In this document: positions 43,243 through 59,303 of the stretch, in pieces
Layout of the letters: each line of letters starts with the position of its first letter
How positions within the stretch are numbered: the first letter of the stretch is position 1
Assembly (NCBI GenBank): GCA_946894095.1
Contig: OX335656.1
Coordinates: 6,463,001-6,527,000, forward strand
DNA from: Incurvaria masculella
Taxonomy: Eukaryota; Arthropoda; Insecta; Lepidoptera; Incurvariidae
DNA length: 64,000 nt
Direction of reading: 5' to 3'
The notes under the pieces: model-generated
The model's database searches: none
What the model was told of the DNA's origin: nothing
What the model saw: the letters and a program-made list of their open reading frames with translations, nothing else
Position numbers and translations under genes: made by a program

Positions 43243-43313
43243 AAAAAAAACTGACTTCAAAGAAAAATAAGGTATTCCAAAACTAATTAACATGGCCAAA
43301 ATGGCAATTAATA

Positions 43314-44637
43314 GGTCGGGGAAAAAGTCTTTTCGCATTATAGTATGTATGAACTTGTAATAAAATCTCTTTGGCTATACTATTTGTATCTGGCTGGTTT
43401 TGGTATCATTGAAAGTTTAAATTTTAAAGAACATAATTCCAAATTCAAATTAGGAAAATGTGTGATTCTCATTTGTTTTTCGTACTGTCAAAATGAGTGA
43501 ATCTAATGAAGAAATTCGATACATTTTAAAATTTTACTACAAAAAAGGTAAAAATGCAACGCAAGCCGCGAAAAAAATTTGCGATGTTTATGGACCTAGT
43601 GCAGTGTCTGTGAGAGTAGGACAAATTTGGTTTAAGCGTTTTCAATCCGGAAATTTTGATGTCAAAGATGCACGTCGCTCTGGTCGCCCTATTACGGATA
43701 AAATGGATGCCATTTTTGAAAAAGTGGAGCAAGATCGGCATATCAGTAGTTACGACGTAGCTGAAGAACTAGAAATTGACCACAAAACAGTTTTGGCGCA
43801 TTTGAAAAAAACTGGGTACACAAAAAAGCTCGATATTTGGGTACCTCACGAGCTCACTGAAAGAAACCTAACGAACCGTGTACTCATTTGTGATTCTTTA
43901 TTACGACGTAATGAAACCGAACCATTTTTGAAGAAGCTGATAACTGGTGATGAAAAGTGGATCACGTACGACAAGAACGTGCGAAAAAGGTCGTGGTCAA
44001 AGGCCGGTCAAGCTTCACAGACTGTGGCGAAACCCGGGTTAACTCGCAACAAGGTGATGCTGTGTGTGTGGTGGGATTGGAAGGGCATTATTCATTATGA
44101 GCTGTTACCACCAGGCAGGACCATCGATTCTGAACTCTACTGCGAACAACTGATGAGATTAAAGCAAGAAGTTGAGAGAAAGCGGCCGGAATTAATCAAC
44201 AGAAGGGGTGTGGTTTTTCATCATGATAACGCTAGACCTCACACATCTTTAGCCACTCAGCAAAAACTAAGAGAGTTTGGCTGGGAGGTGTTAATGCATC
44301 CGCCGTATAGTCCTGACCTTGCACCTTTAGATTTCCACCTGTTTAGGTCTCTTCAGAATTCTTTAGGCAGTGTCAGGTTAACATCACGAGAGGACTGCCA
44401 AAACCACTTGTCGCGGTATATTGATCAGAAGTCCCAATATTTCTATAGCAATGGGATCATGTCCCTACCTACAAGATGGCAAAAAGTTATCGAACAAAAT
44501 GGTACCTACATACTTTAGTTAAATGTAAATAAACCATATTAAAAAATTTTTTGAATTAAAAAATGAAAATAAATAAAGTTTCAGCCAAAAAAAAAAAAAA
44601 ATTTTTTTCTTAAAAAATGCGAAGAAACTTTTTCCCC
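43314..44637 (+). mobile_element. mariner transposon, copy A
   Basis: The 5' terminal repeat GGTCGGGGAAAAAGTCTTTT starts after a TA dinucleotide (43312-43313). The 3' end has the inverted equivalent AATGCGAAGAAACTTTTTCC then CC, but lacks the last GACC of the 5' repeat, and is followed by ATA. About 1.32 kb, with a single intact transposase gene. Confidence 0.88.
43493..44518 (+). CDS. mariner transposase, copy A, intact
   Basis: 341 aa, normal for mariner (about 345). It binds the element's terminal inverted repeats and performs cut-and-paste transposition at TA sites, in the nucleus. The N-terminal ~110 residues form the paired helix-turn-helix DNA-binding part. WVPHELT (about residue 116) is the mariner signature between binding and catalytic parts. 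The catalytic triad is intact: D153 (TGDEKW), D245 (HHDNARPH) and D280 in YSPDLAPLDFHLF, giving the D34D spacing. The residue just before D280 is Leu, where copy B has the usual Ser. The ATG follows GTCAAA. There are six amino-acid differences from copy B. The type looks closest to cecropia/Hsmar1-like mariners, by eye only. Confidence 0.96.
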   Translation: MSESNEEIRYILKFYYKKGKNATQAAKKICDVYGPSAVSVRVGQIWFKRFQSGNFDVKDARRSGRPITDKMDAIFEKVEQDRHISSYDVAEELEIDHKTVLAHLKKTGYTKKLDIWVPHELTERNLTNRVLICDSLLRRNETEPFLKKLITGDEKWITYDKNVRKRSWSKAGQASQTVAKPGLTRNKVMLCVWWDWKGIIHYELLPPGRTIDSELYCEQLMRLKQEVERKRPELINRRGVVFHHDNARPHTSLATQQKLREFGWEVLMHPPYSPDLAPLDFHLFRSLQNSLGSVRLTSREDCQNHLSRYIDQKSQYFYSNGIMSLPTRWQKVIEQNGTYIL

Positions 44638-45943: not shown

Positions 45944-47215
45944 CAAAAAAGTTTCTTCGCATTTTTTAAGAAAATTCAAAACATTTTTAATATGGTTTAT
46001 TTACATTTAACTAAAGTATGTAGGTACCATTTTGTTCGATAACTTTTTGCCATCTTGTAGGTAGGGACATGATCCCATTGCTATAGAAATATTGGGACTT
46101 CTGATCAATATACCGCGACAAGTGGTTTTGGCAGTCCTCTCGTGATGTTAACCTGACACTGCCTAAAGAATTCTGAAGAGACCTAAACAGGTGGAAATCT
46201 GAAGGTGCAAGGTCAGGACTATACGGCGGATGCATTAACACCTCCCAGCCAAACTCTCTTAGTTTTTGCTGAGTGGCTAAAGATGTGTGAGGTCTAGCGT
46301 TATCATGATGAAAAACCACACCCCTTCTGTTGATTAATTCCGGCCGCTTTCTCTCAACTTCTTGCTTTAATCTCATCAGTTGTTCGCAGTAGAGTTCAGA
46401 ATCGATGGTCCTGCCTGGTGGTAACAGCTCATAATGAATAATGCCCTTCCAATCCCACCACACACACAGCATCACCTTGTTGCGAGTTAACCCGGTTTTC
46501 GCCACAGTCTGTGAAGCTTGACCGGCCTTTGACCACGACCTTTTTCGCACGTTCTTGTCGTACGTGATCCACTTTTCATCACCAGTTATCAGCTTCTTCA
46601 AAAATGGTTCGGTTTCATTACGTCGTAATAAAGAATCACAAATGAGTACACGGTTCATTAGGTTTCTTTCAGTGAGCTCGTGAGGTACCCAAATATCGAG
46701 CTTTTTTGTGTACCCAGTTTTTTTCAAATGCGCCAAAACTGTTTTGTGGTCAATTCCTAGTTCTTCAGCTACGTCGTAACTACTGATATGCCGATCTTGC
46801 TCCACTTTTTCAAAAATGGCATCCATTTTATCCGTAATAGGGCGACCAGAGCGACGTGCATCTTTGACATCAAAATTTCCGGATTGAAAACGCTTAAACC
46901 AAATTTGTGCTACTCTCACAGACACTGCACTAGGTCCATAAACATCGCAAATTTTTTTCGCGGCTTGCGTTGCATTTTTACCTTTTTTGTAGTAAAATTT
47001 TAAAATGTATCGAATTTCTTCATTAGATTTACTCATTTTGACAGTACGAAAAACAAATGAGAATCACACATTTTCCTAATTTGAATTTGGAATTATGTTC
47101 TTTAAAATTTAAACTTTCAATGATACCAAAACCAGCCAGATACAAATAGTATAGCCAAAGAGATTTTATTACAAGTTCATACATACTATAATGCGAAAAG
47201 ACTTTTTCCCCGACC
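45944..47215 (-). mobile_element. mariner transposon, copy B
   Basis: Inverted relative to copy A. Its 5' terminal repeat ends at 47215 (TTTTCCCCGACC) next to TA (47216-47217) and is identical to that of copy A over at least 26 bp. Its 3' end near 45944 keeps GTTTCTTCGCATTTTTTAAG but has TTTCAA where copy A has GGGG, and a ~45-bp deletion lies between the stop codon and this end. Confidence 0.85.
46011..47036 (-). CDS. mariner transposase, copy B, intact
   Basis: 341 aa, colinear with copy A, no stop or frameshift. It differs at six residues (for example K for E at position 3, G for E in the EELGIDH block, and S for L just before the last catalytic Asp). The helix-turn-helix N-terminus, WVPHELT, and the D153/D245/D280 triad with D34D spacing are all present, with the standard YSPDLAPSDFHLF. 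The protein could be active, but the element's own 3' terminal repeat is damaged. It lies tail-to-tail with copy A, 1.3 kb apart. Confidence 0.96.
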   Translation of the reverse strand: MSKSNEEIRYILKFYYKKGKNATQAAKKICDVYGPSAVSVRVAQIWFKRFQSGNFDVKDARRSGRPITDKMDAIFEKVEQDRHISSYDVAEELGIDHKTVLAHLKKTGYTKKLDIWVPHELTERNLMNRVLICDSLLRRNETEPFLKKLITGDEKWITYDKNVRKRSWSKAGQASQTVAKTGLTRNKVMLCVWWDWKGIIHYELLPPGRTIDSELYCEQLMRLKQEVERKRPELINRRGVVFHHDNARPHTSLATQQKLREFGWEVLMHPPYSPDLAPSDFHLFRSLQNSLGSVRLTSREDCQNHLSRYIDQKSQYFYSNGIMSLPTRWQKVIEQNGTYIL

Positions 47216-47217
47216 TA

Positions 47218-47681
47218 TTACGTAGATGTTTGGATTTTTTTACTCTTTTAAATAAGTCAAAACATTTTAATAAATCTCGATTTGTAATTTTTAGATCAGA
47301 GTATGACCTGTATTTCTAACGGACTACAAATTTTTATAAAAAACTGAATAAATTGTCTTTCAATCATCGATTTTTCACGTTTTGAGTCCTGTTTTCGCTT
47401 TAAGAGTCATTACCCTATTGATTTCCAATACTACGGGTGAAAACTGTGTACATGCTATTAATGTTTTACTAGGTTTTGGAAAAGTTTGATTCTACATTAT
47501 ATTGTCAAGATCTAAGTCTGTATGTTTGCATTTTTTTAATATACCTTTCAAATTGTAAAATATTGACAAAAATAGTTTTTTTAACCTTAATTATAGTTTT
47601 TTTTTACCTAAAAATACAGATATTCATAACATACAAACATAGAATCTAGCTTTCACAATTAATTACATTTTTTTTACTAAA
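47218..47681. other. No recognisable gene; left flank of the LTR retrotransposon
   Basis: AT-rich with several T-runs; no frame of note. Confidence 0.45.
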
Positions 47682-47685
47682 ATCT
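47682..47685 (+). repeat. Target site duplication, left (ATCT)
   Basis: ATCT directly precedes TGTAGC of the 5' LTR and recurs right after the 3' LTR at 59300-59303. If the last A of the LTR is counted as target, the duplication would be AATCT (5 bp). Confidence 0.85.
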
Positions 47686-49068
47686 TGTAGCGTCCGCCGC
47701 GCCGCCTTATGACGTAACGATACCAGGGGCGAGATTATCTTTTTGCATTGAGTGCGAGACAAGGACGCAACGGCATCGCTCCCAGCAAGGTGCGAGCGAG
47801 ATGCTGCACCGGATCTCGGCACTGGTGCACAAACAGCGCCGTTTGAGTTAAATTCGTTAGACACAAGACAAGGACGCAACAGCAGCGCTCCCAGCAAGGT
47901 GCAAGCGAGATGCTGCACCGGATCTCGCCACTGGGGCCTTAGCGACGCCGATTGGGAATGTCGAAACACGCGGCAATCCTCCGCCGCGCCGCCCGCGGGA
48001 CACGGGCAGAAGCGGGCAGCACCTTGAGACGCACGGTCGCGCCACGTGCTCCGACGAGTGCGGGTCCCGAGGCCGCGGAGTCAGGCGACATGAACAAAAT
48101 GTGAAAACTTTCGCTCCCAAAAGTTGGTTGAGCTGTCCGCGTACCACCCTTCGCGAATATCGGTGCGCCCGCCGTGCCGCCGTGTTCCGTATCCGTGTGA
48201 GCAGCCGGGCGTGATCTACTTCGAGGCCACACCCACGCCTTCCGATGTCTTCAGCCCGTGGACCAGCAGCCACATCCTCCGCCGTGCCCTGTCACAGTCG
48301 CCGGTCCGACATCTTCAACACGTAGACCCACCACCACAGCGTCGCCGTACGCCTGCTGGATCCCCGCACGGTACCTATACTCTAACGCCAGCCCCCCCGT
48401 AGAAATCTACGATGAAACCGCAAAGAGCGTCTATCAGGACCACCCATTGAAGCAGGACACCGCCCATTCGACTACGCACGACCTCGGACCCACCCCGAGC
48501 TCCCGGCATGGAACCCCGGCCATTTGGATATTAGGTTAGGCTAAGGCCGTGTTAGAACACCGCCTTGATTGTTAATTATTTATAGTCTTCTTTGTGCTTC
48601 TAAATATAGGCTATTTTAGGTAGATGGTTAGATCGCCACAGCCCAATTTTCTTAATTTGTAGGTGTCTTAAATAGGACAATGCCAGGGTGTATTTTTGAT
48701 TGTCTGTTTGTGTTTTGTGCCTCAAATGGTCTATAATTTATTACATCTTTTTTGTACCTACTGTAGTCTGTTAATTCGCTATTCATCGATTCCCTACAAA
48801 TTCACCCATCCCCAACCTGTGAACAGCCTCCCCCACACGCTGCAGAGCTGCCACCAAGTACATTCATGAGATCCCTCCTCTACACATCACACTTTATACA
48901 CCGGCGTAACCACCTGGATATCTTGTAGCCTAATTAAATTACAACGAACCACCGGAAGATCCCTGGGCCCTTGAAACCCTATATATGTCTGTCGGTCTGT
49001 CCGTGGCAACCACTCCTACTTACTCATTTCTTCTAATGCATCACACCCTTTAAATTAACAAGGCTACA
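47686..49068 (+). repeat. 5' LTR (1,383 bp)
   Basis: Begins TGTAGC and ends GCTACA, a perfect 6-bp inverted terminal motif with TG...CA. The first ~850 bp is GC-rich and holds a ~65-bp direct duplication (GACAAGGACGCAAC...GATGCTGCACCGG at 47757 and 47876). The last ~500 bp is AT-rich. Open frames inside (91-138 codons) lie in the GC-rich half and are not supported as genes. It should contain the promoter and polyadenylation signal; I could not place them. Confidence 0.95.
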
Positions 49069-49070
49069 AT

Positions 49071-49085
49071 TGGCACCCGAACTGG
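49071..49085 (+). promoter_or_regulatory. Primer-binding site
   Basis: TGGCACCCGAACTGG begins 2 nt after the LTR end. The TGG start is complementary to a tRNA CCA tail. Which tRNA primes is not determined. Confidence 0.8.
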
Positions 49086-49855
49086 TTTATTTTAATTTCC
49101 TATTTGTATATATTAATTATATTTATTTTATTATGGTACGCCTCACTTGTTTTATACACTACAAATTAACTCTCCATTTCAGCCCTGACGGTAAGCAAAT
49201 AGCGAATTAACAAAACTGAATATTAAATGTGTCAATAACGAGTTGTGTCCACCAACGTAATAGGTATATAGGTACTTACGCACGTTATTTCATTTTAGAA
49301 TATCGAGTCTTGCAATAGCGCACGAAGGCGGTAACTCTCGCTCTTATAGGTGTGCACTGTTTCCTTAGGTTTTTAGGTCATCATATATTGGAAGCCGAGA
49401 GCAGAGCATATTCTTTGTCTTTCTCTCATTTCTTATAAATATAGCTTATAGCACGTTGCGCGTGGACAAATCGCGAGCACGTGAGCACGCGACCGGCCAG
49501 TCCCGCGATCCGGAACTTCTTGGGTTAGTATGAAACAACGAAATATAAAAAACTGAAATGTGCTGTTTCATTTAAGTGTATAATTTTATGTGTTCTTGAT
49601 GCTTATGTATTGTGTGTGTAAATAACGTGTGTGAAATTTTTTTTTCTTCTCGCTTTATTCTCTTGCGTTGAACACGTAGGTTATATTTGGAAGTCAGGTT
49701 AACTACGTGCTTATTGTTAATCACTCGTTAAAACAAACCTTAATCTGTAGTTATCAGGCTTTCGTCTCGTTCGATCTAGTCGCGTGTCGCGTTAACGGAA
49801 ATTTACGTAATTTTTTTTTAACTCATTTTAAGTAAGTTATTATAGGTACTGCAAA
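49086..49855 (+). other. Untranslated leader of the retrotransposon
   Basis: 770 bp without a long frame. It probably carries dimerisation and packaging signals of the genomic RNA, but none can be recognised. Confidence 0.6.
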
Positions 49856-51199
49856 ATGGAAAGCCAGGACCATTCCGTGTGCATTGACATGCCAGAGGAC
49901 CAATTAATTATGTATGACAATCAATCCATAAATTCACAGTCGGAGGTTAATGTTGTAACACGTAGTGGTGGTGATTATGGACCCAGTTTTTTTTCCTTGG
50001 ATAACGATTCCAACCAGTCATCTTCAAGTACCGTGGTAAAACCAGAAGGTCTCCACGAAAATTGTGTGTTCAACAAACATTACTACAACTTATCGTCCTG
50101 GAATCTAAAATATAGTGGTGAAACAGATGTACGTGAATTCATTGCCCGTGTCGAAGAGCTTACTTATGCGCGGAAATCTAACTATGACATCGTACTGAGA
50201 TGTTTCATTGATTTGTTGTCGGGCACTGCTTTGAAATGGTTCCGTACCGTGAGGGATGGAGTTACGAATTGGGACCAGCTTAAGAAAGCCTTGTTAGAGG
50301 AGTACGATAATATCGACTACGTTTTCGACACGGAATCCCGTATTCGCTCGTTAAAACAAAAACCTAACCAGAAGTTGTCAGATTTTGTAACAGATGTGAA
50401 TGATTTGGCAAATAAAATCAAGGGTCAAATTTCCGATATCATGCTTTTCGAAATAATAAAACGAAATATGTTACCTAAGTACAATCAATGTCTGATTTAC
50501 GGTACGATTAAAAATACTTGCGACCTTCTGGCGTATGGTAAGAAAATTGAACGTTTTAATAATGAGGCCCCCTTCAGTAATATCAAATCAGAGGTGTCCA
50601 AAGTTAACAGTTATATTCCTAAAGCCGAGACAGTGTCGACTTCAAACGCAAACGCTTGTCTCAAATGTAAAAATACGGGCCATTCTTTTAAAAACTGCCC
50701 GAATATTTTAATACCTATCTGCTTTGACTGCGGCAAGCTAAATGTCACGTCCAAAAATTGTCCCACATGTGCCGCGAAAGGTAACCAAAATTCGAGGTCT
50801 ACGCCTCAGCCCCACTCTCGGTTCACATCTCGTGCTGAAGCGTCACACCAACGCAGCGGACAACAATACCCGCCGTGGTATAACAATAATGCAGGCCAAT
50901 TTAGTGTTAGGCAACAGAATCCTCCAACTTATATTAACAACGCCAACAATAACAATTTTAATGGCGGTCAATATCCTCGTTTTAGGCCAGTCTATTCAGG
51001 CCAATACAATAACTCTTACCGCCCTAGGGGTCAGCAATACCGACCTTATTTTCCGAACGCGAGTCACCCCCCGGCGACTCACTTTCACTCATCGAACTAC
51101 GCCGATAGCGCGCGCGAGCTGCCGCATAACAATATTCGAGCGATCGAGGCCCCCCCATCCCCCCCTCAATCTTCCGCTTCTCATACAAAAAACGGGTAA
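49856..51199 (+). CDS. gag: Gag polyprotein
   Basis: 447 aa; assembles the virus-like particle and packages the element's RNA in the cytoplasm. Residues ~80-200 resemble the retrotransposon capsid domain (YSGETDVREFIARVEEL, LSGTALKWFRTVRDG, LSDFVTDVNDLANKI). A CCHC zinc knuckle is complete: C268, C271, H276, C281 (CLKCKNTGHSFKNC). A second one starts at C289/C292 and ends at C302 but has Val where His is expected. The C-terminal ~130 residues are rich in Asn, Gln, Pro, Tyr and Arg with RPRGQQYRP-like repeats, suggesting low-complexity RNA binding. The ATG is preceded by AAA, a good animal context. The stop at 51197-51199 comes 3 nt after a slippery heptamer. Confidence 0.95.
   Translation: MESQDHSVCIDMPEDQLIMYDNQSINSQSEVNVVTRSGGDYGPSFFSLDNDSNQSSSSTVVKPEGLHENCVFNKHYYNLSSWNLKYSGETDVREFIARVEELTYARKSNYDIVLRCFIDLLSGTALKWFRTVRDGVTNWDQLKKALLEEYDNIDYVFDTESRIRSLKQKPNQKLSDFVTDVNDLANKIKGQISDIMLFEIIKRNMLPKYNQCLIYGTIKNTCDLLAYGKKIERFNNEAPFSNIKSEVSKVNSYIPKAETVSTSNANACLKCKNTGHSFKNCPNILIPICFDCGKLNVTSKNCPTCAAKGNQNSRSTPQPHSRFTSRAEASHQRSGQQYPPWYNNNAGQFSVRQQNPPTYINNANNNNFNGGQYPRFRPVYSGQYNNSYRPRGQQYRPYFPNASHPPATHFHSSNYADSARELPHNNIRAIEAPPSPPQSSASHTKNG
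51187..51193 (+). promoter_or_regulatory. Programmed -1 ribosomal frameshift site
   Basis: The heptamer A AAA AAC is in register with the gag frame and sits 3 nt before the gag stop. Pol is in the -1 frame, open from 51130, so slippage here fuses Gag to Pol. A downstream structure (CACCGG / CCTCGG area) is possible but not clear. Confidence 0.82.
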
Positions 51200-54100
51200 A
51201 CGCACCGGCGACTTATACCTCCTCGGAAGAATGGCATGACTGGTTAAAATTTGTTCATGACTTTCCGAAAGTTAGCCCGGTGCTATCAAACCAACATGGC
51301 GATAGGAGGCCTTACGTTCATTTCAAGTTAAATAATAAGGATTTTACAGCTCTATTAGATAGTGGAGCCGAGATAAATGTGTTTGGTAATAATTCACATC
51401 TTGAAATACTGAATATGGGATATACTTTAGACAAGTCCAAAATTTGTTCCGCCTCTACGGCAGACGGGACTAAACAATTTAGTCCAGGCTCAATCCATTG
51501 TAATATCGTGGTCGACGGCATTGAAATTCCACTTACTTTTGAAGTTATTCCAGAAATTAAATCTGATTGCATTTTAGGCACAGAATTTTGGGAAAAGTCC
51601 GGTCTATCAAAAAAAATTTCCGGCTGTATAAATAAAAAAATCACTTTCCCCATTCCGTCAGAATTTCAGATTTCTTCATTAAACATTGATGGGGCCATTA
51701 AAAAAATTAAAGATATTATTTCCAGCTTAGATATCATTAAAAGTAAAATTTCTAGCTTTAACAGCCCCCGTTCGAGCAAACATTATAAGTTGTTGGATGA
51801 ATCACTTACTAAGTTATTGTTAGCTTTGGACGACATTCCGTCTAATAATAACCCGGACATTAAGTCGGCCCGCAAAATAGCCGTCGCTTCTGTGCAAGAG
51901 TCAATAGATGTCTTAGAACGCAAAGCGTATCGGCCGAATTCTCCCCCGCCCACCCTCCCTACGTACGTGCCGCTCGCGTCGGTCGGTGAAACCAAGCCTT
52001 CTTCCGGAGCGCTCAATGCCACACATCGCGCTCAGAGCGCACAGCCCCCGCATTCTGTTTCTAACGCGCAACAGCTGCATTCTATTTCTAACTCGAGTAA
52101 TTGTAAACTTTCTCCAGATGAACAATTAATATTAAATAAAACGATAGAAAAGTTTGAGTCCATATCTTTTGAAAAATGTGGCCTAGGTCGAACGCATCTT
52201 CTTGAATATGAAATTGATACGGAAGGTCCTCCAATCAAACAAAGGTTCTATCGCATGTCACCCTACAAACAAAAGTTAGTGGACCAATTAATAGATGAAA
52301 TGATAGACTTGGATGTTCTGGAACCATCATCGTCACCCTGGGCCAGTCCTGTGTTAGTAGTACCCAAGAAGGACAACTCCTTCCGCCTTTGCATGGACTC
52401 TCGTAAACTAAACGCTGTTACAAAAAAATGTAGTTATCCTCTCCCTCGCATAGATAACATTCTTGATAATTTAAAGGACGCAAAATATATTTCTTCCATT
52501 GACTTATCTAAGGCATTTCTTCAGCTCCCTCTGGCAGAATCGGCTAAGGAAAAGACAGCGATTATCTCACAGGGCCGAGGCTTATTACAATTTAAGGTGG
52601 TCCCTTTTGGGCTATCTAACGCACCCCAGAATTTACAACGCCTGGTCGATGCGTTACTACCAGGTGCAGAATTCGATGACCATGTGTTTGGTTATCTAGA
52701 CGACCTAATTATAATTTCCAACAATTTTGCAGACCATATTTCTTACCTTGACAAAGTTTACGAACGTTTACATTTCGCTAACCTAACAGTTAACCTAAAG
52801 AAGTGTGAATTTCTAAAATCTGAGCTGAAATATCTTGGTTACGTTATAAACGAGTTCGGCTTAAAGACTGACCCAGCCAAAGTGGAGGCAGTGAAAAACT
52901 TTCCAACACCCAAATGTGTCAAAGATGTACGCAGTTTCTTAGGACTAGCTTCCTACTACCGCCGTTTCATCAAAAATTTCTCTACTATTGCGGCGCCCCT
53001 GTCCAATCTCACAAGTTCCATCTCTGAAAAATATTCAAAATTTAATTGGACACCTGAGGCAGAGGCAGCCTTCGTAAAATTAAAATCCGCCCTCACTTCA
53101 GCCCCAGTTTTATGTGTTCCCAATTTTGAAGCCCCCTTTTTCCTCCACTGTGATGCAAGTTTAGTGGGAATTGGTTCAGCAGTTGTACAAAAGGACGCAA
53201 ATTTTCAGGAACACCCCGTAGCTTACTATTCGAGAACGCTAACAAAACAAGAGCAAGGTTTTTCTACCACCGAAAGGGAATTACTTAGTATTGTGGAAGC
53301 TACCACACATTTTAGACATTACCTAGAAGGAACTCATTTCACGATTGTGACTGACCATGAAAGCTTGAAATGGTTATATAAACTCGAGAACCCCACGGGC
53401 AGGCTCGCCCGTTGGTCTACTAGGCTCTCGCAATTCTCCTTTGATATCGTCCACAAGAAAGGCAAACTCCATGTTGTCCCGGACGCGTTGTCACGTATTA
53501 AGATCGAAAGTGTAAACTCATCCAACCCAAACGTTCCTATAACTGATGAGTGGTTTTTGAAAATAAAAAATAGTATACAAAAATCACCCGCTAGTTACCC
53601 GAACTTTAGGTTGGAAGACGATAAGCTCTTTCGTTTTTGCAAACCTAAATTCAATCTTTTAAATTCATTTTCATGGAAAGAAGTTATTCCCGCTGACCAT
53701 ATTAAACAGCTAGTAACTGCTACTCACGAGAGCCCTCTATCGGCACACCTTGGCCCATTTAAATGTTTTAAAAAGTTACAACTGAATTATTACTGGCCCA
53801 ACATGTTTCCTTCAATCAAATCAATCTTAAGTTCGTGTGAAGTTTGTTTGGCATTTAAAGCTAATAATCAGCTACCCCATGGTAAAATGTTATTTCAGAA
53901 GAAGGTCTACGCTCCAATGCAAACATTAAGTTGCGATCTCATTGGTCCTCTGCCGAGGTCTTATTCAGGACACGCATACTTGCTTACTGTAGTTGACATT
54001 TTCTCCAAATTTGTATGGTTATGCCCACTTAGAAAAGCCAATAGTAAGTCAATAATTAAATTCATTGAAAATGAGATTTTCCTAGTCTATGGCGTGCCAT

Positions 54101-54768
54101 ATTGTATGATAAGTGATAATGGCGTGCAGTTCGTCTCTAACGAGTTTCAGGCACTTTTAAAAAGGTATAATATCCCTAAATTTTTCAAAAATTGTGTCTA
54201 TTTCCCACAAAACAATCCAGTGGAAAGACACAATCGTACCATTGAATTAGCCATTGCTTCTTATGTTGAGACAGACCATAGAAACTGGACTAAAAATTTA
54301 CCTAAGATTCAGGCAGCTTTAAATAGCCATGTCAGCTTAGCCCATGGGTTTTCACCCAATTTTGTAATGACAGGTAGAGAACTCATCTTCGATGGTCGAT
54401 TCCATAAATTTGCAGATTTCACTAAATTAGAGGAGTTAATTATCGATGGTCGCGACGAATGGACCACTAGCTTAAAATCATTGGCAAGCGTTTTTCATCA
54501 AATCCAAGCGAACCTGACTCAAGCATATCAAGCTAATGCCAAACGCTACAACCTTCGTCGTTCAGTGATACATTTCAATGTAGGTGACATAGTCTGGCGT
54601 CGATCCCATGTTCAATCGGACGCCGCTAAATTCTTTTCAAATAAATTAGCCCCTCGTTTTATTAAATCTGTGGTCCTTGAGAAAAAATCTGAAAATACAT
54701 ACATTTTGGGCAACATGGATGGTTCCAAGGCAGGCCTAATACATGTGAGTGATATTATTAAATACTAA
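51193..54768 (+). CDS. pol: Pol polyprotein: protease, reverse transcriptase, RNase H, integrase
   Basis: Made as Gag-Pol by frameshifting; the frame has no ATG near its start. Residues here are counted from the GTG at 51280. The aspartic protease has LLDSGAEINVFG (D27-S28-G29). The reverse transcriptase has D408 (SIDLSKAF) and Y472-L-D474-D475 (GYLDD). RNase H has D625, TTERELL (663-669) and D692. Integrase has a zinc-binding HHCC region with CEVC, then the catalytic D886, D946 and E982 (D-x59-D-x35-E). The C-terminus ends in a GPY/F-like module (FNVGDIVWRR ... ISDIIKY-like end); there is no chromodomain. All catalytic residues are present and the frame has no stops. Usual length for a Gypsy pol. 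It copies the RNA into DNA and integrates it. Confidence 0.97.
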   Translation, partial: RVNAPATYTSSEEWHDWLKFVHDFPKVSPVLSNQHGDRRPYVHFKLNNKDFTALLDSGAEINVFGNNSHLEILNMGYTLDKSKICSASTADGTKQFSPGSIHCNIVVDGIEIPLTFEVIPEIKSDCILGTEFWEKSGLSKKISGCINKKITFPIPSEFQISSLNIDGAIKKIKDIISSLDIIKSKISSFNSPRSSKHYKLLDESLTKLLLALDDIPSNNNPDIKSARKIAVASVQESIDVLERKAYRPNSPPPTLPTYVPLASVGETKPSSGALNATHRAQSAQPPHSVSNAQQLHSISNSSNCKLSPDEQLILNKTIEKFESISFEKCGLGRTHLLEYEIDTEGPPIKQRFYRMSPYKQKLVDQLIDEMIDLDVLEPSSSPWASPVLVVPKKDNSFRLCMDSRKLNAVTKKCSYPLPRIDNILDNLKDAKYISSIDLSKAFLQLPLAESAKEKTAIISQGRGLLQFKVVPFGLSNAPQNLQRLVDALLPGAEFDDHVFGYLDDLIIISNNFADHISYLDKVYERLHFANLTVNLKKCEFLKSELKYLGYVINEFGLKTDPAKVEAVKNFPTPKCVKDVRSFLGLASYYRRFIKNFSTIAAPLSNLTSSISEKYSKFNWTPEAEAAFVKLKSALTSAPVLCVPNFEAPFFLHCDASLVGIGSAVVQKDANFQEHPVAYYSRTLTKQEQGFSTTERELLSIVEATTHFRHYLEGTHFTIVTDHESLKWLYKLENPTGRLARWSTRLSQFSFDIVHKKGKLHVVPDALSRIKIESVNSSNPNVPITDEWFLKIKNSIQKSPASYPNFRLEDDKLFRFCKPKFNLLNSFSWKEVIPADHIKQLVTATHESPLSAHLGPFKCFKKLQLNYYWPNMFPSIKSILSSCEVCLAFKANNQLPHGKMLFQKKVYAPMQTLSCDLIGPLPRSYSGHAYLLTVVDIFSKFVWLCPLRKANSKSIIKFIENEIFLVYGVPYCMISDNGVQFVSNEFQALLKRYNIPKFFKNCVYFPQNNPVERHNRTIELAIASYVETDHRNWTKNLPKIQAALNSHVSLAHGFSPNFVMTGRELIFDGRFHKFADFTKLEELIIDGRDEWTTSLKSLASVFHQIQANLTQAYQANAKRYNLRRSVIHFNVGDIVWRRSHVQSDAAKFFSNKLAPRFIKSVVLEKKSENTYILGNMDGSKAGLIHVSDIIKY

Positions 54769-55002
54769 AAAAAAATTAATTAAAACTTTTGTTGAACTGG
54801 TTTGCATTTCTTTGATATATTTGGTCATAAATTTAAACAATAACTTTAAGTAACAATAAGTTACAAAATTTTTAAATGGTTAAATTCTCTATTAAATTGT
54901 ATCTTGTGTCACACGCCCTAAAAAGGAGCCAGGTGTCAAGGGATACATGGATGACGGTAATTCTTGGAGAAGTTTTTTTAGTAAAACAAGCTATACTCCA
55001 AT

Positions 55003-55017
55003 AGTTAGGTTAGGGTC
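55003..55017 (+). repeat. Left 15-mer flanking the hairpin array
   Basis: AGTTAGGTTAGGGTC, repeated exactly at 55698-55712. Confidence 0.9.
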
Positions 55018-55020
55018 AGT

Positions 55021-55648
55021 CGTGCGCGGTTGTTTTTTTTGGAATATTTTTCGAACGCACGTTAATATCTAAAGCCTTATTGAAAAAATATCCCGTGAAC
55101 GGTATTGGCAAGGGAATTCACGTTAATAAATAAAAAGCCCTATCCTTGCTCACGGACGGTTACGTGGGAATCCGTGTTATAAATCTAAGCCTTATCCCGC
55201 ATCTAGGTGTTCGGTCACAAATCATGCCGACACACTACCTAGGTTAGATTCGTTTTGGTATGTTTATTTAAGTTTTAGTATATGTCTTGTTCTTGGAAAA
55301 TTTTGTCTTTGGAAAAAAAAAATATATTTTGTCTTTTAAAAAAAATGTGCTTGTGTCACAATGTACTATTGGGTACACGTGTGTCCTGGGCGATATGGAA
55401 CGCGGTCGAGTTAACGTTCTTTGTTATAAATTAAAGCCTTATCGACTCACCGGTGCGCGGTTTTTTATGGTATTTTTGAAACGCACGTTAAACGCCCAAG
55501 CCTTATTCAAAATATCCCGCAGGACGGTTGGTTGAGAATCCTGCGTAGCAAAAATAAAGCCTTATCTCTCAAACTTATGTGTACGGTCACTCTTGTGTCG
55601 TCACAGCTGGAGGCGGTTGTAGAACCTCCATATAAATATAAGCCTTAT
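55021..55648 (+). ncRNA. Tandem array of seven structured hairpin units with covarying stems
   Basis: Each unit is stem, loop beginning CGGT and mostly ending GAA or AA, matching stem, 10-14 nt of A/T-rich spacer, then AAGCC(T/C)TAT. Stems: CGTGCG/CGCACG (55021, 55056), CGTGAA/TTCACG (55094, 55117), CACGGA/TCCGTG (55151, 55171), GAACG/CGTTC (55398, 55415), GTGCG/CGCAC (55453, 55482), CGCAGGA/TCCTGCG (55518, 55539), TGGAGG/CCTCCA (55608, 55625). The tail motif starts at 55072, 55135, 55187, 55434, 55498, 55557 and 55640. An extra larger hairpin (CTAGGT/ACCTAG, 55203-55242) lies between units 3 and 4. Pairing is kept while sequence varies, so the structure is probably what matters. A role in packaging, stability or translation of the element RNA is inference. 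Whether it is processed to a separate RNA is unknown. Confidence 0.75.
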
Positions 55649-55697
55649 CTACACTCCACATTGTTCGAATCCGTTAAAATCAGTTCGACAAATTCTT

Positions 55698-55712
55698 AGT
55701 TAGGTTAGGGTC
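55698..55712 (+). repeat. Right 15-mer flanking the hairpin array
   Basis: AGTTAGGTTAGGGTC, identical to 55003-55017. Confidence 0.9.
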
Positions 55713-57099
55713 TTTCACAGACGTCCGCGAAGCAAACCAGCCTCGCGTTCGTCGGGTTTTTTTTTCTTCTCTCTCTTTCTTTTACCTCCACCTCACTTAA
55801 CCTCACCCCTCACCCTATTCCCTAGCAAGCTTGCGCCCTCCCACCCTAACACCAACCACCTCACCCAACCCAGTATGATAGATAATTTAAAAGAAAGGAT
55901 ACGACAGGATAAGTGAATGATGATGTAAGCAAGTGGTTCCTACCCTTTTCCCCATATCTGTCCTCTGTCACTAGTAAGTGGTCTCAACCGAGTCACTTAC
56001 GTAGACAAGGCATACAGCGCATTCACCGCGCTTTATTTTATGTTAGTTCTTTTGGTTATTCTCTATTTTTTTTTTTCTCTTTTCTTTTTTTTCTTTTAAC
56101 AGCTATAGTGTACTGTAACGGGCAACACGTCGCGTCAGACACGTTCAGCTGAAAACACATAATGGTGTATTTCGTGATAGATGCCGCCTCCCATGAGGGG
56201 GGCAAAATTCTATAGAATCTCTAGGTGCAGGCCATACCCCATTTAACGCTTCTCGACAGGCGGTGCACTAGGCACCTACCTAGGGCCAAGATGAGACACG
56301 AGACAGTTCGCGTGTCTTGATCTGAAGGGGTTTTACGAGTTCTCACTCTGAGGCTCACCAATTACAACCAGTTTTTTATGTTAAGTCGGCATAATAAGAC
56401 TGGTTGGGTTGCATTATTTAGTTTTAAGTTCCAAACAACCATACCCTCCCAACACATGTTCTCTGTACATACCTGTATATAAAAATACTTATAAGTCGTA
56501 TTTAGATAAAATTTACTCTAGGTAAGAACAAGGATATGACATTTATAAAGCGTCCCTTATAAAAAGGCACTTATTATTTTGGATTTTGAGCGTCTACGGG
56601 TTAAATGTTAATGACGTTTCCCATAGGATTCTATTCGGTTAATGTAAACCATTTTGAAGACTGCTGAGTCTTATTTGCCAAATCATTTCATGTGTCTCAA
56701 AACGCGTTCGTGAGTGTTGGTAAAACTTTCGTATTAATTGTACAATTGTAAATATTGCTAATTTTAGTTTAAACTTAAAATTAATTTATAGGCGCACAAT
56801 AGCGACCAATAAGAGTAGGAACTCTAAATAAATATGGCATAGTGAGCCACTGAACATATAAACTCTCGGAAAGACAAAATTAAACACGGATTTTGAGAAA
56901 ATTCAAATTGTATTAAGATATAAACATGCTAATTATATAAATACAATTAAAATACTTAAGCGTAGGTACTTAGTTAGTTAGTTAGTTCGCGTTCAGAGTG
57001 ACACATCTTAAGTAGGATGTCGCTAGACACATTATAGTATTTAGAAAGTATACGGAATGTTAGAAATATAATGTCCGGAACACACAGTGGTTCCTACTA

Positions 57100-57490
57100 T
57101 CGCTTTAATAATGCTGGTGGACACAACTTCGCTTAATAATGTTTTCTCATACTTGTCTTAATTTTTATTATTGAAAATACACTCAAGGACAAAACTTCCT
57201 TTATTGATGTTTTTTTTTCTTAAATTATTTGTCTTAATTCTTATTATCGAAAGTACACTCATAGATACAACTTCTTTAGTGATGTTTATTTTTATACGTA
57301 TCTCAATTTTCCTTATTATTGAAAGTACACTCAAGGACACAACTTGTTCTCTTTATGCCTTGCTTTTCTTGTTTTTATTTAAAAAAAAAAGACATTCATG
57401 AATATAATTTCGGCTAGTAATGTTTCTTCTCATACTCGTCTTATACTTTTTATTAATAATGAAAGTCAACTTAAAGGATATAAGTCATTG
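57100..57490 (+). repeat. Degenerate ~70-76-bp tandem repeat in the retrotransposon 3' region
   Basis: TTGAAA(A/G)TACACTCA with GGACA(C/A)AACTT recurs at 57171, 57247 and 57319, with weaker units before (about 57110) and after (about 57390, 57459). The block CATTGGGCT-TGGCTT then repeats near 57487 and 57640. Confidence 0.75.
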
Positions 57491-57916
57491 GGCTGTGGCT
57501 TCCATAGGACTGTAAATATGTGTTAGCTTGTACATGTGTGTAAATATTTTACTGATTGATAAAAATGTTACTTATATGTTAATGTCATAACACTGTGTTC
57601 GATATTAATTCTATTTCTGTTGTCATTTAGATGTTTTAGCATTCCATTGGGCTTGGCTTATAGTATTGTAAACCTGTTGAATGTCTAGAAATTTAAAACA
57701 GTTTTGCCAATCGATATCACATTGATGTAAAGATTATCATTAGTAACATTTTGGTTAGCTTCAGTATTAATTATTACTTTTGCACTGTCAATTATAGTTC
57801 AGCAATTAATGTTATAGTCACTGTGACATTCTGGTCACTTTGTTAAATGTCTAGGGTACTTAAATTCTTTTTTTTTTTTTGCTTGTTTTTTTTTTGTTTT
57901 TTAAGTAACCGGGTAT

Positions 57917-59299
57917 TGTAGCGTCCGCCGCGCCGCCTTATGACGTAACGATACCAGGGGCGAGATTATCTTTTTGCATTGAGTGCGAGACAAGGACGCA
58001 ACGGCATCGCTCCCAGCAAGGTGCGAGCGAGATGCTGCACCGGATCTCGGCACTGGTGCACAAACAGCGCCGTTTGAGTTAAATTCGTTAGACACAAGAC
58101 AAGGACGCAACAGCAGCGCTCCCAGCAAGGTGCAAGCGAGATGCTGCACCGGATCTCGCCACTGGGGCCTTAGCGACGCCGATTGGGAATGTCGAAACAC
58201 GCGGCAATCCTCCGCCGCGCCGCCCGCGGGACACGGGCAGAAGCGGGCAGCACCTTGAGACGCACGGTCGCGCCACGTGCTCCGACGAGTGCGGGTCCCG
58301 AGGCCGCGGAGTCAGGCGACATGAACAAAATGTGAAAACTTTCGCTCCCAAAAGTTGGTTGAGCTGTCCGCGTACCACCCTTCGCGAATATCGGTGCGCC
58401 CGCCGTGCCGCCGTGTTCCGTATCCGTGTGAGCAGCCGGGCGTGATCTACTTCGAGGCCACACCCACGCCTTCCGATGTCTTCAGCCCGTGGACCAGCAG
58501 CCACATCCTCCGCCGTGCCCTGTCACAGTCGCCGGTCCGACATCTTCAACACGTAGACCCACCACCACAGCGTCGCCGTACGCCTGCTGGATCCCCGCAC
58601 GGTACCTATACTCTAACGCCAGCCCCCCCGTAGAAATCTACGATGAAACCGCAAAGAGCGTCTATCAGGACCACCCATTGAAGCAGGACACCGCCCATTC
58701 GACTACGCACGACCTCGGACCCACCCCGAGCTCCCGGCATGGAACCCCGGCCATTTGGATATTAGGTTAGGCTAAGGCCGTGTTAGAACACCGCCTTGAT
58801 TGTTAATTATTTATAGTCTTCTTTGTGCTTCTAAATATAGGCTATTTTAGGTAGATGGTTAGATCGCCACAGCCCAATTTTCTTAATTTGTAGGTGTCTT
58901 AAATAGGACAATGCCAGGGTGTATTTTTGATTGTCTGTTTGTGTTTTGTGCCTCAAATGGTCTATAATTTATTACATCTTTTTTGTACCTACTGTAGTCT
59001 GTTAATTCGCTATTCATCGATTCCCTACAAATTCACCCATCCCCAACCTGTGAACAGCCTCCCCCACACGCTGCAGAGCTGCCACCAAGTACATTCATGA
59101 GATCCCTCCTCTACACATCACACTTTATACACCGGCGTAACCACCTGGATATCTTGTAGCCTAATTAAATTACAACGAACCACCGGAAGATCCCTGGGCC
59201 CTTGAAACCCTATATATGTCTGTCGGTCTGTCCGTGGCAACCACTCCTACTTACTCATTTCTTCTAATGCATCACACCCTTTAAATTAACAAGGCTACA
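57917..59299 (+). repeat. 3' LTR (1,383 bp)
   Basis: Same TGTAGC...GCTACA boundaries as the 5' LTR, offset by exactly 10,231 bp throughout. Reading the two in parallel, I found no difference. Confidence 0.95.
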
Positions 59300-59303
59300 A
59301 TCT
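59300..59303 (+). repeat. Target site duplication, right (ATCT)
   Basis: Matches 47682-47685. Confidence 0.85.

Follow-up and report, generated by a model that had tools for sequence, protein, structure and literature searches.

A tandem hairpin array in the 3' region of LTR retrotransposons of Incurvaria masculella as a candidate cis-acting RNA element

Introduction

What maintains a row of small hairpins whose stems differ in sequence, and what might it do for the retrotransposon that carries it? The question is raised by a locus within a 64,000-nt stretch of the Incurvaria masculella genome, here called the window. A first-pass annotation of these letters had proposed an array under selection for RNA structure, with packaging, export, decay control or translation as possible roles, and had named a covariation test and a comparison of stem decay with that of neighbouring sequence as checks. 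To our knowledge, beyond a few models little has been established about the RNA signals for LTR retrotransposon packaging, and the mobilisation of gene-less LTR elements is open for most families. The array described below is supported as a structure and is the only detectable sequence common to an ORF-less element and a young coding family, which makes it a small, testable candidate for a packaging or mobilisation signal. One decayed unit (unit 0) offers a natural negative.

Results

The element that carries the array, GYP (47686-59299), is a young LTR retrotransposon of Ty3/Gypsy type. The array lies within its 3' non-coding region, which bears out the earlier placement in a retrotransposon 3' region (Table 1). 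GYP has both gag and pol and is classed by the order of the Pfam matches in pol, whose relatives include Plutella and Manduca entries. Its LTRs, 1383 bp each, lie inside a 1386-bp repeat and are 100% identical; the target duplication ATCT is present on both sides and a PBS-like site directly 3' of the 5' LTR. A zinc-knuckle-like CX2CX4HX4C motif was read by eye in gag. Between pol and the 3' LTR there is no ORF of at least 100 aa, and the array starts about 0.2 kb and ends about 0.9 kb (about 180-880 nt) past the pol stop codon.

Further features of the element and its surroundings were observed. Pol residues 153-214, between protease and RT, match the Pfam BAG domain above cut-off (E 3.4e-10, 40.7 bits), and PF02179 is absent, among the matches listed, from the Pfam lists of at least 120 pol relatives. 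Imperfect 76-bp tandem repeats occupy 57158-57345 of the 3' region, shortly upstream of the 3' LTR. Upstream of GYP, a 1.25-kb DNA element forms an inverted pair (43309-44557 and 45973-47220, 99.4% identity) containing a 341-aa ORF (46011-47036, minus strand) that presumably resembles a mariner transposase.

All seven reported units of one layout, termed A units, were confirmed letter by letter between 55019 and 55648 on the sense strand, with the perfect stems, CGGT loops and AAGCC tails that the first-pass annotation had described. Each consists of a stem, a loop starting CGG, an A/T-rich spacer and the tail. The stems are perfectly Watson-Crick paired (6, 6, 6, 5, 5, 7 and 6 bp in order), and every one abuts CGGT (loop starts at 55027, 55100, 55157, 55403, 55458, 55525 and 55614). 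AAGCC(T/C)TAT closes every A unit and is found in the window eight times on the plus strand, seven of them in the array, and never on the minus strand. Beyond the seven units there are a decayed eighth unit, two bulged B hairpins and a longer hairpin, H, just upstream of unit 5. Units 1 and 6 partly duplicate each other (76% over 55 nt). Unit 0 is the only GYP unit with a broken stem, and its tail is broken as well; an intact counterpart with the stem GGAAGA/TCTTCT occurs in two related elements (L062 and L041).

Table 1. Features of GYP and its hairpin array, in window coordinates.
Feature	Position	Strand	Basis
Target duplication ATCT	47682-47685 and 59300-59303		4 bp, read from sequence
5' LTR (TGTAGC...GCTACA)	47686..49068	+	Identical repeat; ends read from sequence
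PBS-like site	starts 49071		
gag ORF, 447 aa	49856..51199	+	Retrotrans_gag domain (Pfam)
pol ORF, 1162 aa	51280..54768	+	Protease, RT, RNase H, integrase, in this order; plus BAG-domain match (Pfam)
Decayed A unit 0, stem no longer paired, tail AAGCTAT (one C lost and a change)	54947..54994	+	Covariance model, E 3.9
16-bp direct repeat, left of block	55002..55017	+	Exact match to the right-hand copy
A unit 1, stem CGTGCG/CGCACG	55019..55080	+	Pairing check, covariance model
A unit 2, stem CGTGAA/TTCACG	55092..55143	+	Pairing check, covariance model
A unit 3, stem CACGGA/TCCGTG	55149..55195	+	Pairing check, covariance model
B hairpin B4, one bulged base	55203..55242	+	
Hairpin H, 15 predicted pairs	55349..55391	+	RNAalifold alignment
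A unit 5, stem GGAACG/CGTTCT	55395..55442	+	Pairing check, covariance model
A unit 6, stem GTGCG/CGCAC	55450..55506	+	Pairing check, covariance model
A unit 7, stem CGCAGGA/TCCTGCG	55517..55565	+	Pairing check, covariance model
B hairpin B8, one bulged base	55578..55605	+	
A unit 9, stem TGGAGG/CCTCCA	55606..55648	+	Pairing check, covariance model
16-bp direct repeat, right of block	55697..55712	+	Exact match
3' LTR	57917..59299	+	Identical repeat; then target duplication ATCT

The units are more than a chance occurrence: stems of at least 5 bp accompany 7 of the 10 CGGT sites on the plus strand of 55000-55700, as against 10 of 267 elsewhere in the window on both strands, and none of these 267 sites combines such a stem with AAGCC within 40 nt. 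A covariance model trained on five of the seven A units recovered the two left-out units (E 1.4e-4 and 3.1e-3); besides decayed unit 0, it found no further unit in the window up to E 10. The 633-nt array as a whole folds no better than its shuffles (z +1.02; 18 of 20 shuffles as stable or more), and units 2, 3 and 6 favour an alternative pairing when folded singly. The array is thus a string of small elements and not one stable fold. Single-sequence folding is no proof of structure, and the case therefore depends on comparison.

The genome searched, a single one of 552 Mb in 31 contigs, contains 160 matches to a 26-mer from unit 2 at up to three mismatches; the reversed control gave 0. Twenty of the 100 listed places (of the 160) were read as 3.5-kb loci (C1-C4), omitting places already found by an earlier search. 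They comprise 14 loci of GYP type, three copies of an LTR element called NA13, one sibling coding element (L062) and two elements of a type called G4 (L053 and L056). The array had been taken for an element of this one retrotransposon; its presence in GYP stands, and it also occurs in other element types of the same genome. L062 and GYP are 78.6% identical in pol DNA (720 columns) and 90.4% identical in units 1-3 (178 columns). A tandem series on contig C8, with a unit of about 5365 bp at no fewer than 13 places, is of the L062 type. A search with the G4 array returned 11 of 11 candidates scored, including two older relatives, L069 and L070. The older copy L070 has CGC in place of CGG and one mismatched stem position. 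The pattern GGGNNATAYGGABNNCGG occurs at nine places, seven of which coincide with places from the G4-array search, and its C5 match was rejected as chance; the ninth lies at C8:6432108. Each of the five places of the pattern CCCTAGCAAGCTTH adjoins G4-array search places.

The tail of the A unit is not a general motif, since the genome pattern GTTA-gap-AAGCCTTATR has 34 places against 144 for its reversed control. Among 30 loci cut out for this pattern, one (L030, an NA13 copy) bears the array; L014, L023 and L036, by eye apparently one unrelated repeat, were dropped. Three of the four pol matches found with P0002 were checked (C11, C10 and C9, with C3 left aside). The 1.2-1.4 kb adjoining each, where the C9 match is incomplete, contains no A unit, so the array may be restricted to one branch of pol relatives. 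IMG/VR holds neither an exact match to an array 27-mer nor a relative of pol.

Other arrangements among these relatives were recorded. The C8 series (G000:C8:16602817-16683917, L041-L044) consists of LTR-type units; on the strand opposite to the element runs a 475-aa ORF, which has no Pfam match at cut-off, none among PDB sequences, and no protein homologue among the candidates scored. Five GYP elements stand in tandem at G000:C13:9109876-9149553 (L045-L048) with a spacing of about 9905 bp. The GYP copy L067 has a duplication (915-1602 and 2670-2922) that covers part of the 3' region, including the second half of its array. A second conserved 3' stretch lies at 55819-56034 of the window; it matches the L062/C8 type at 71-74% identity and G4 more weakly, and no match to it was found in NA13.

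Comparison between element types revealed stems changed on both sides. The unit 3 stem CACGGA/TCCGTG of GYP is CGCAGGA/TCCTGCG in L062, G4 (L053 and L056) and L069, and the unit 5 stem GGAACG/CGTTCT is GGAGTG/CACTCT in G4 (L053) and L069. RNAalifold recovered H and unit 5 unprompted from a five-sequence alignment, in which 4 of the 15 pairs of H and two pairs of unit 5 changed on both sides between element types; three H pairs and one unit-5 pair are broken in one or two of the five sequences. Among the stem cells of 22 distinct A units, 94.7% are paired, with a score of 0.941 versus 0.296 for shuffled units, and sliding the partner strand leaves 28-64% of cells paired (highest at the +2 slide, 63.9%). 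Two of five measures on the 22 units were not above shuffles (double-change pairs, 111/500; pair types, 98/500).

The covariation test called for by the first-pass annotation was run in the manner of R-scape on 23 units and 36 columns from this one genome, with 3' strands positioned by complementarity and substitutions redistributed on the tree in 200 simulations. The top five of 528 column pairs were all stem pairs. Four of the six stem pairs fell below E 0.05 (0.000, 0.010, 0.030 and 0.045) and the remaining two gave 0.295 and 2.0; the best non-stem column pair had E 0.47.

Sequence variation among copies is distributed unevenly. In the 14 Gypsy-type loci of the 20, with 26 finding bases excluded, the 160 stem, CGGT and tail sites are all invariant. 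By contrast, variation occurs at 53 of 1145 other sites of this 3' region (p 0.0019) and at 18 of 445 sites in the remainder of the array (p 0.0054); for stems alone against the remainder of the array, p is 0.09. A broader set of 24 loci, some picked for array identity, contains one varying tail site and otherwise points in the same direction. Between G4 and L069, the latter found independently of its stems, no change falls in the 82 stem and core sites, whereas 29 of 286 others differ (p 0.00075); for stems alone the count is 0 of 50 (p 0.012). GYP and four single NA13 copies differ by too few changes for significance, and the same comparison of stem and core gave p values of 0.13, 0.59, 0.13 and 1.0. 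Selection on RNA structure, as proposed earlier, is supported by the covariation across units and types together with the invariant stem, loop-start and tail sites, and stems decaying like their neighbours were not seen in intact arrays.

NA13 is a 5015-bp LTR element with 984-bp LTRs (99.8% identical), the target duplication TAGG, its own PBS-like site, and no ORF of at least 120 aa between the LTRs. When compared with GYP (word size 7, E up to 1e-3, same strand only), the array was the only match, with 97.7% identity over 688 columns; the LTR, leader and remaining compared sequence likewise had no match outside the array in GYP, L062, the C8 type or G4. This array identity may reflect recent exchange and not selection. 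The NA13 leader is present in 16 genome copies (16 of 16 candidates scored), and the array accompanies it in every one at the NA13 position, seven recognised through a listed array place directly downstream and the other nine by reading the sequence. No coding partner with this leader was seen among the 16 copies. The block of units lies 3' of unit 0 and between 16-bp direct repeats in GYP, and 5' of the unit-0 counterpart in L062. On the simplest reading, GYP would have acquired the block by recombination or insertion, after which the older unit 0 decayed, stem and tail together. A 99% copy of the 1.25-kb DNA element is found just upstream of NA13 on C13.

Rfam gave no match in 54760-56000 at E up to 5, ribozyme models included, and, at E up to 1, none in the arrays of five other loci, where one chance-level hit fell outside the array. 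Pistol, twister, hammerhead and other ribozymes, riboswitch-like pseudoknots and the histone stem-loop were dropped for lack of a match. A pseudoknot between GGU(U) and AGCC is possible, with weaker pairing in 62u0, GYPu2 and GYPu5 as read from the unit alignment; covariation is blind to it because those letters hardly vary. A literature search at abstract level, with most subscription journals outside its scope, found no report of such an array.

Discussion

The array looks like a working RNA tag because its shape is kept while its letters change, and because it is the sole detectable likeness between GYP and a gene-less element. We tentatively favour, at a little under an even chance and from sequence comparison, the view that the array serves a group of LTR retrotransposons as an RNA element acting in cis and recognised in trans, with Gag packaging as the preferred role. 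Each A unit would offer a single protein CGG(U) and AAGCC in a fixed arrangement, repetition of the units would increase avidity, and the most likely reader would be the zinc-knuckle part of Gag. Full-length RNAs bearing the array would then enter virus-like particles and be copied, and gene-less NA13 would borrow the packaging step through its array. An ORF-less element requires transcription, export, packaging, reverse transcription and integration, and does not require translation. Gag packaging is favoured because selective uptake is the step that such an element must borrow. A packaging signal is expected to be kept by elements unable to make Gag, as the array is in all 16 NA13 copies. 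Against Gag packaging, the retroviral signals described in the accessible part of PMC5035971 are 5', whereas the array is 3' of pol, away from the usual though not obligatory place in the 5' leader or start of gag; the whole array is no stabler than shuffles, two of the six stem pairs miss E 0.05, and the more distant pol relatives on C11, C10 and C9 have no A unit beside them. A broader proposal, which the sequences allow but which we consider somewhat doubtful, is that the array might be a mobilisation tag capable of transfer: hairpin and tail would form a modular code, swapped between LTR families and recognised by Gag or by a host factor, through which an element that lacks ORFs and differs in LTRs and leader could ride another family's machinery.

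The main rival is a nuclear export or stability element, whose hairpins would bring in a host factor for the export or protection of unspliced RNA. It draws on the same structural evidence and on the 3' untranslated place, an ORF-less element needs export too, and export by a host factor would account for most of the same facts. No Rfam family matches the array, however, and export alone, though compatible with the sharing of solely this stretch by NA13 and the Gypsy element, leaves that sharing unexplained; we consider this reading unlikely, but a serious competitor. Control of translation or of 3'-end processing of gag-pol could be argued from the distance of the array to the pol stop codon and from the AATAAA in some spacers, a signal not common to all units. 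A translation role, which the first-pass annotation had included, is not supported, since NA13, without an internal ORF of at least 120 aa, does not need translation yet keeps the array; control of this kind is very unlikely.

Two readings do without a function for the RNA. The block might be a DNA module, mobile or recombining, that spreads from one LTR element to another through template switching or insertion, in which case the identity would mark recent transfer and not function. The direct repeats flanking the block in the window, the different placement of the block relative to unit 0 in L062, and the 97.7% identity between otherwise unlike elements all fit it, but transfer alone predicts neither both-side stem changes nor invariance confined to stem, loop start and tail. 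Transfer and function are moreover compatible with each other, and the module reading by itself appears improbable. Mutational bias would keep the inverted repeats perfect through hairpin-templated repair, a process that can generate double-sided changes, without any selection. It does not explain why, outside the stem, CGG is invariant and AAGCC nearly so, or why stem and tail decayed jointly in unit 0, and we rate it the least probable of these explanations.

Packaging by Gag, the reading we prefer, can be set beside several known systems. The constitutive transport element of MPMV consists of repeated structured sites in the 3' non-coding region that act via a host protein, NXF1. The array resembles it in these repeated sites and their place, and differs in motif and layout and in having no Rfam match. 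BARE2 is a close relative of BARE1. According to the accessible part of PMC3735527, BARE2 is unable to make Gag but is packaged and retains packaging signals; NA13 is alike as a Gag-less element that keeps candidate cis signals, and unlike in that it shares only the array with the Gypsy element, the array being tandem and 3' of pol. In retroviral psi, a zinc-knuckle protein recognises a short RNA structure, as would be the case here, but psi lies in the 5' leader and the start of gag (PMC5035971, accessible part), whereas the array is 3' of pol and without an Rfam match. Retrozymes, in what is accessible of PMC4918200, offer another small conserved RNA structure in non-autonomous retroelements; the array differs in matching no ribozyme family and in its internal position. 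Cis-acting structured RNA is thus known from LTR retroelements, and what is unusual here is that hairpin-plus-tail units form a tandem array on the 3' side, one that has apparently passed from family to family.
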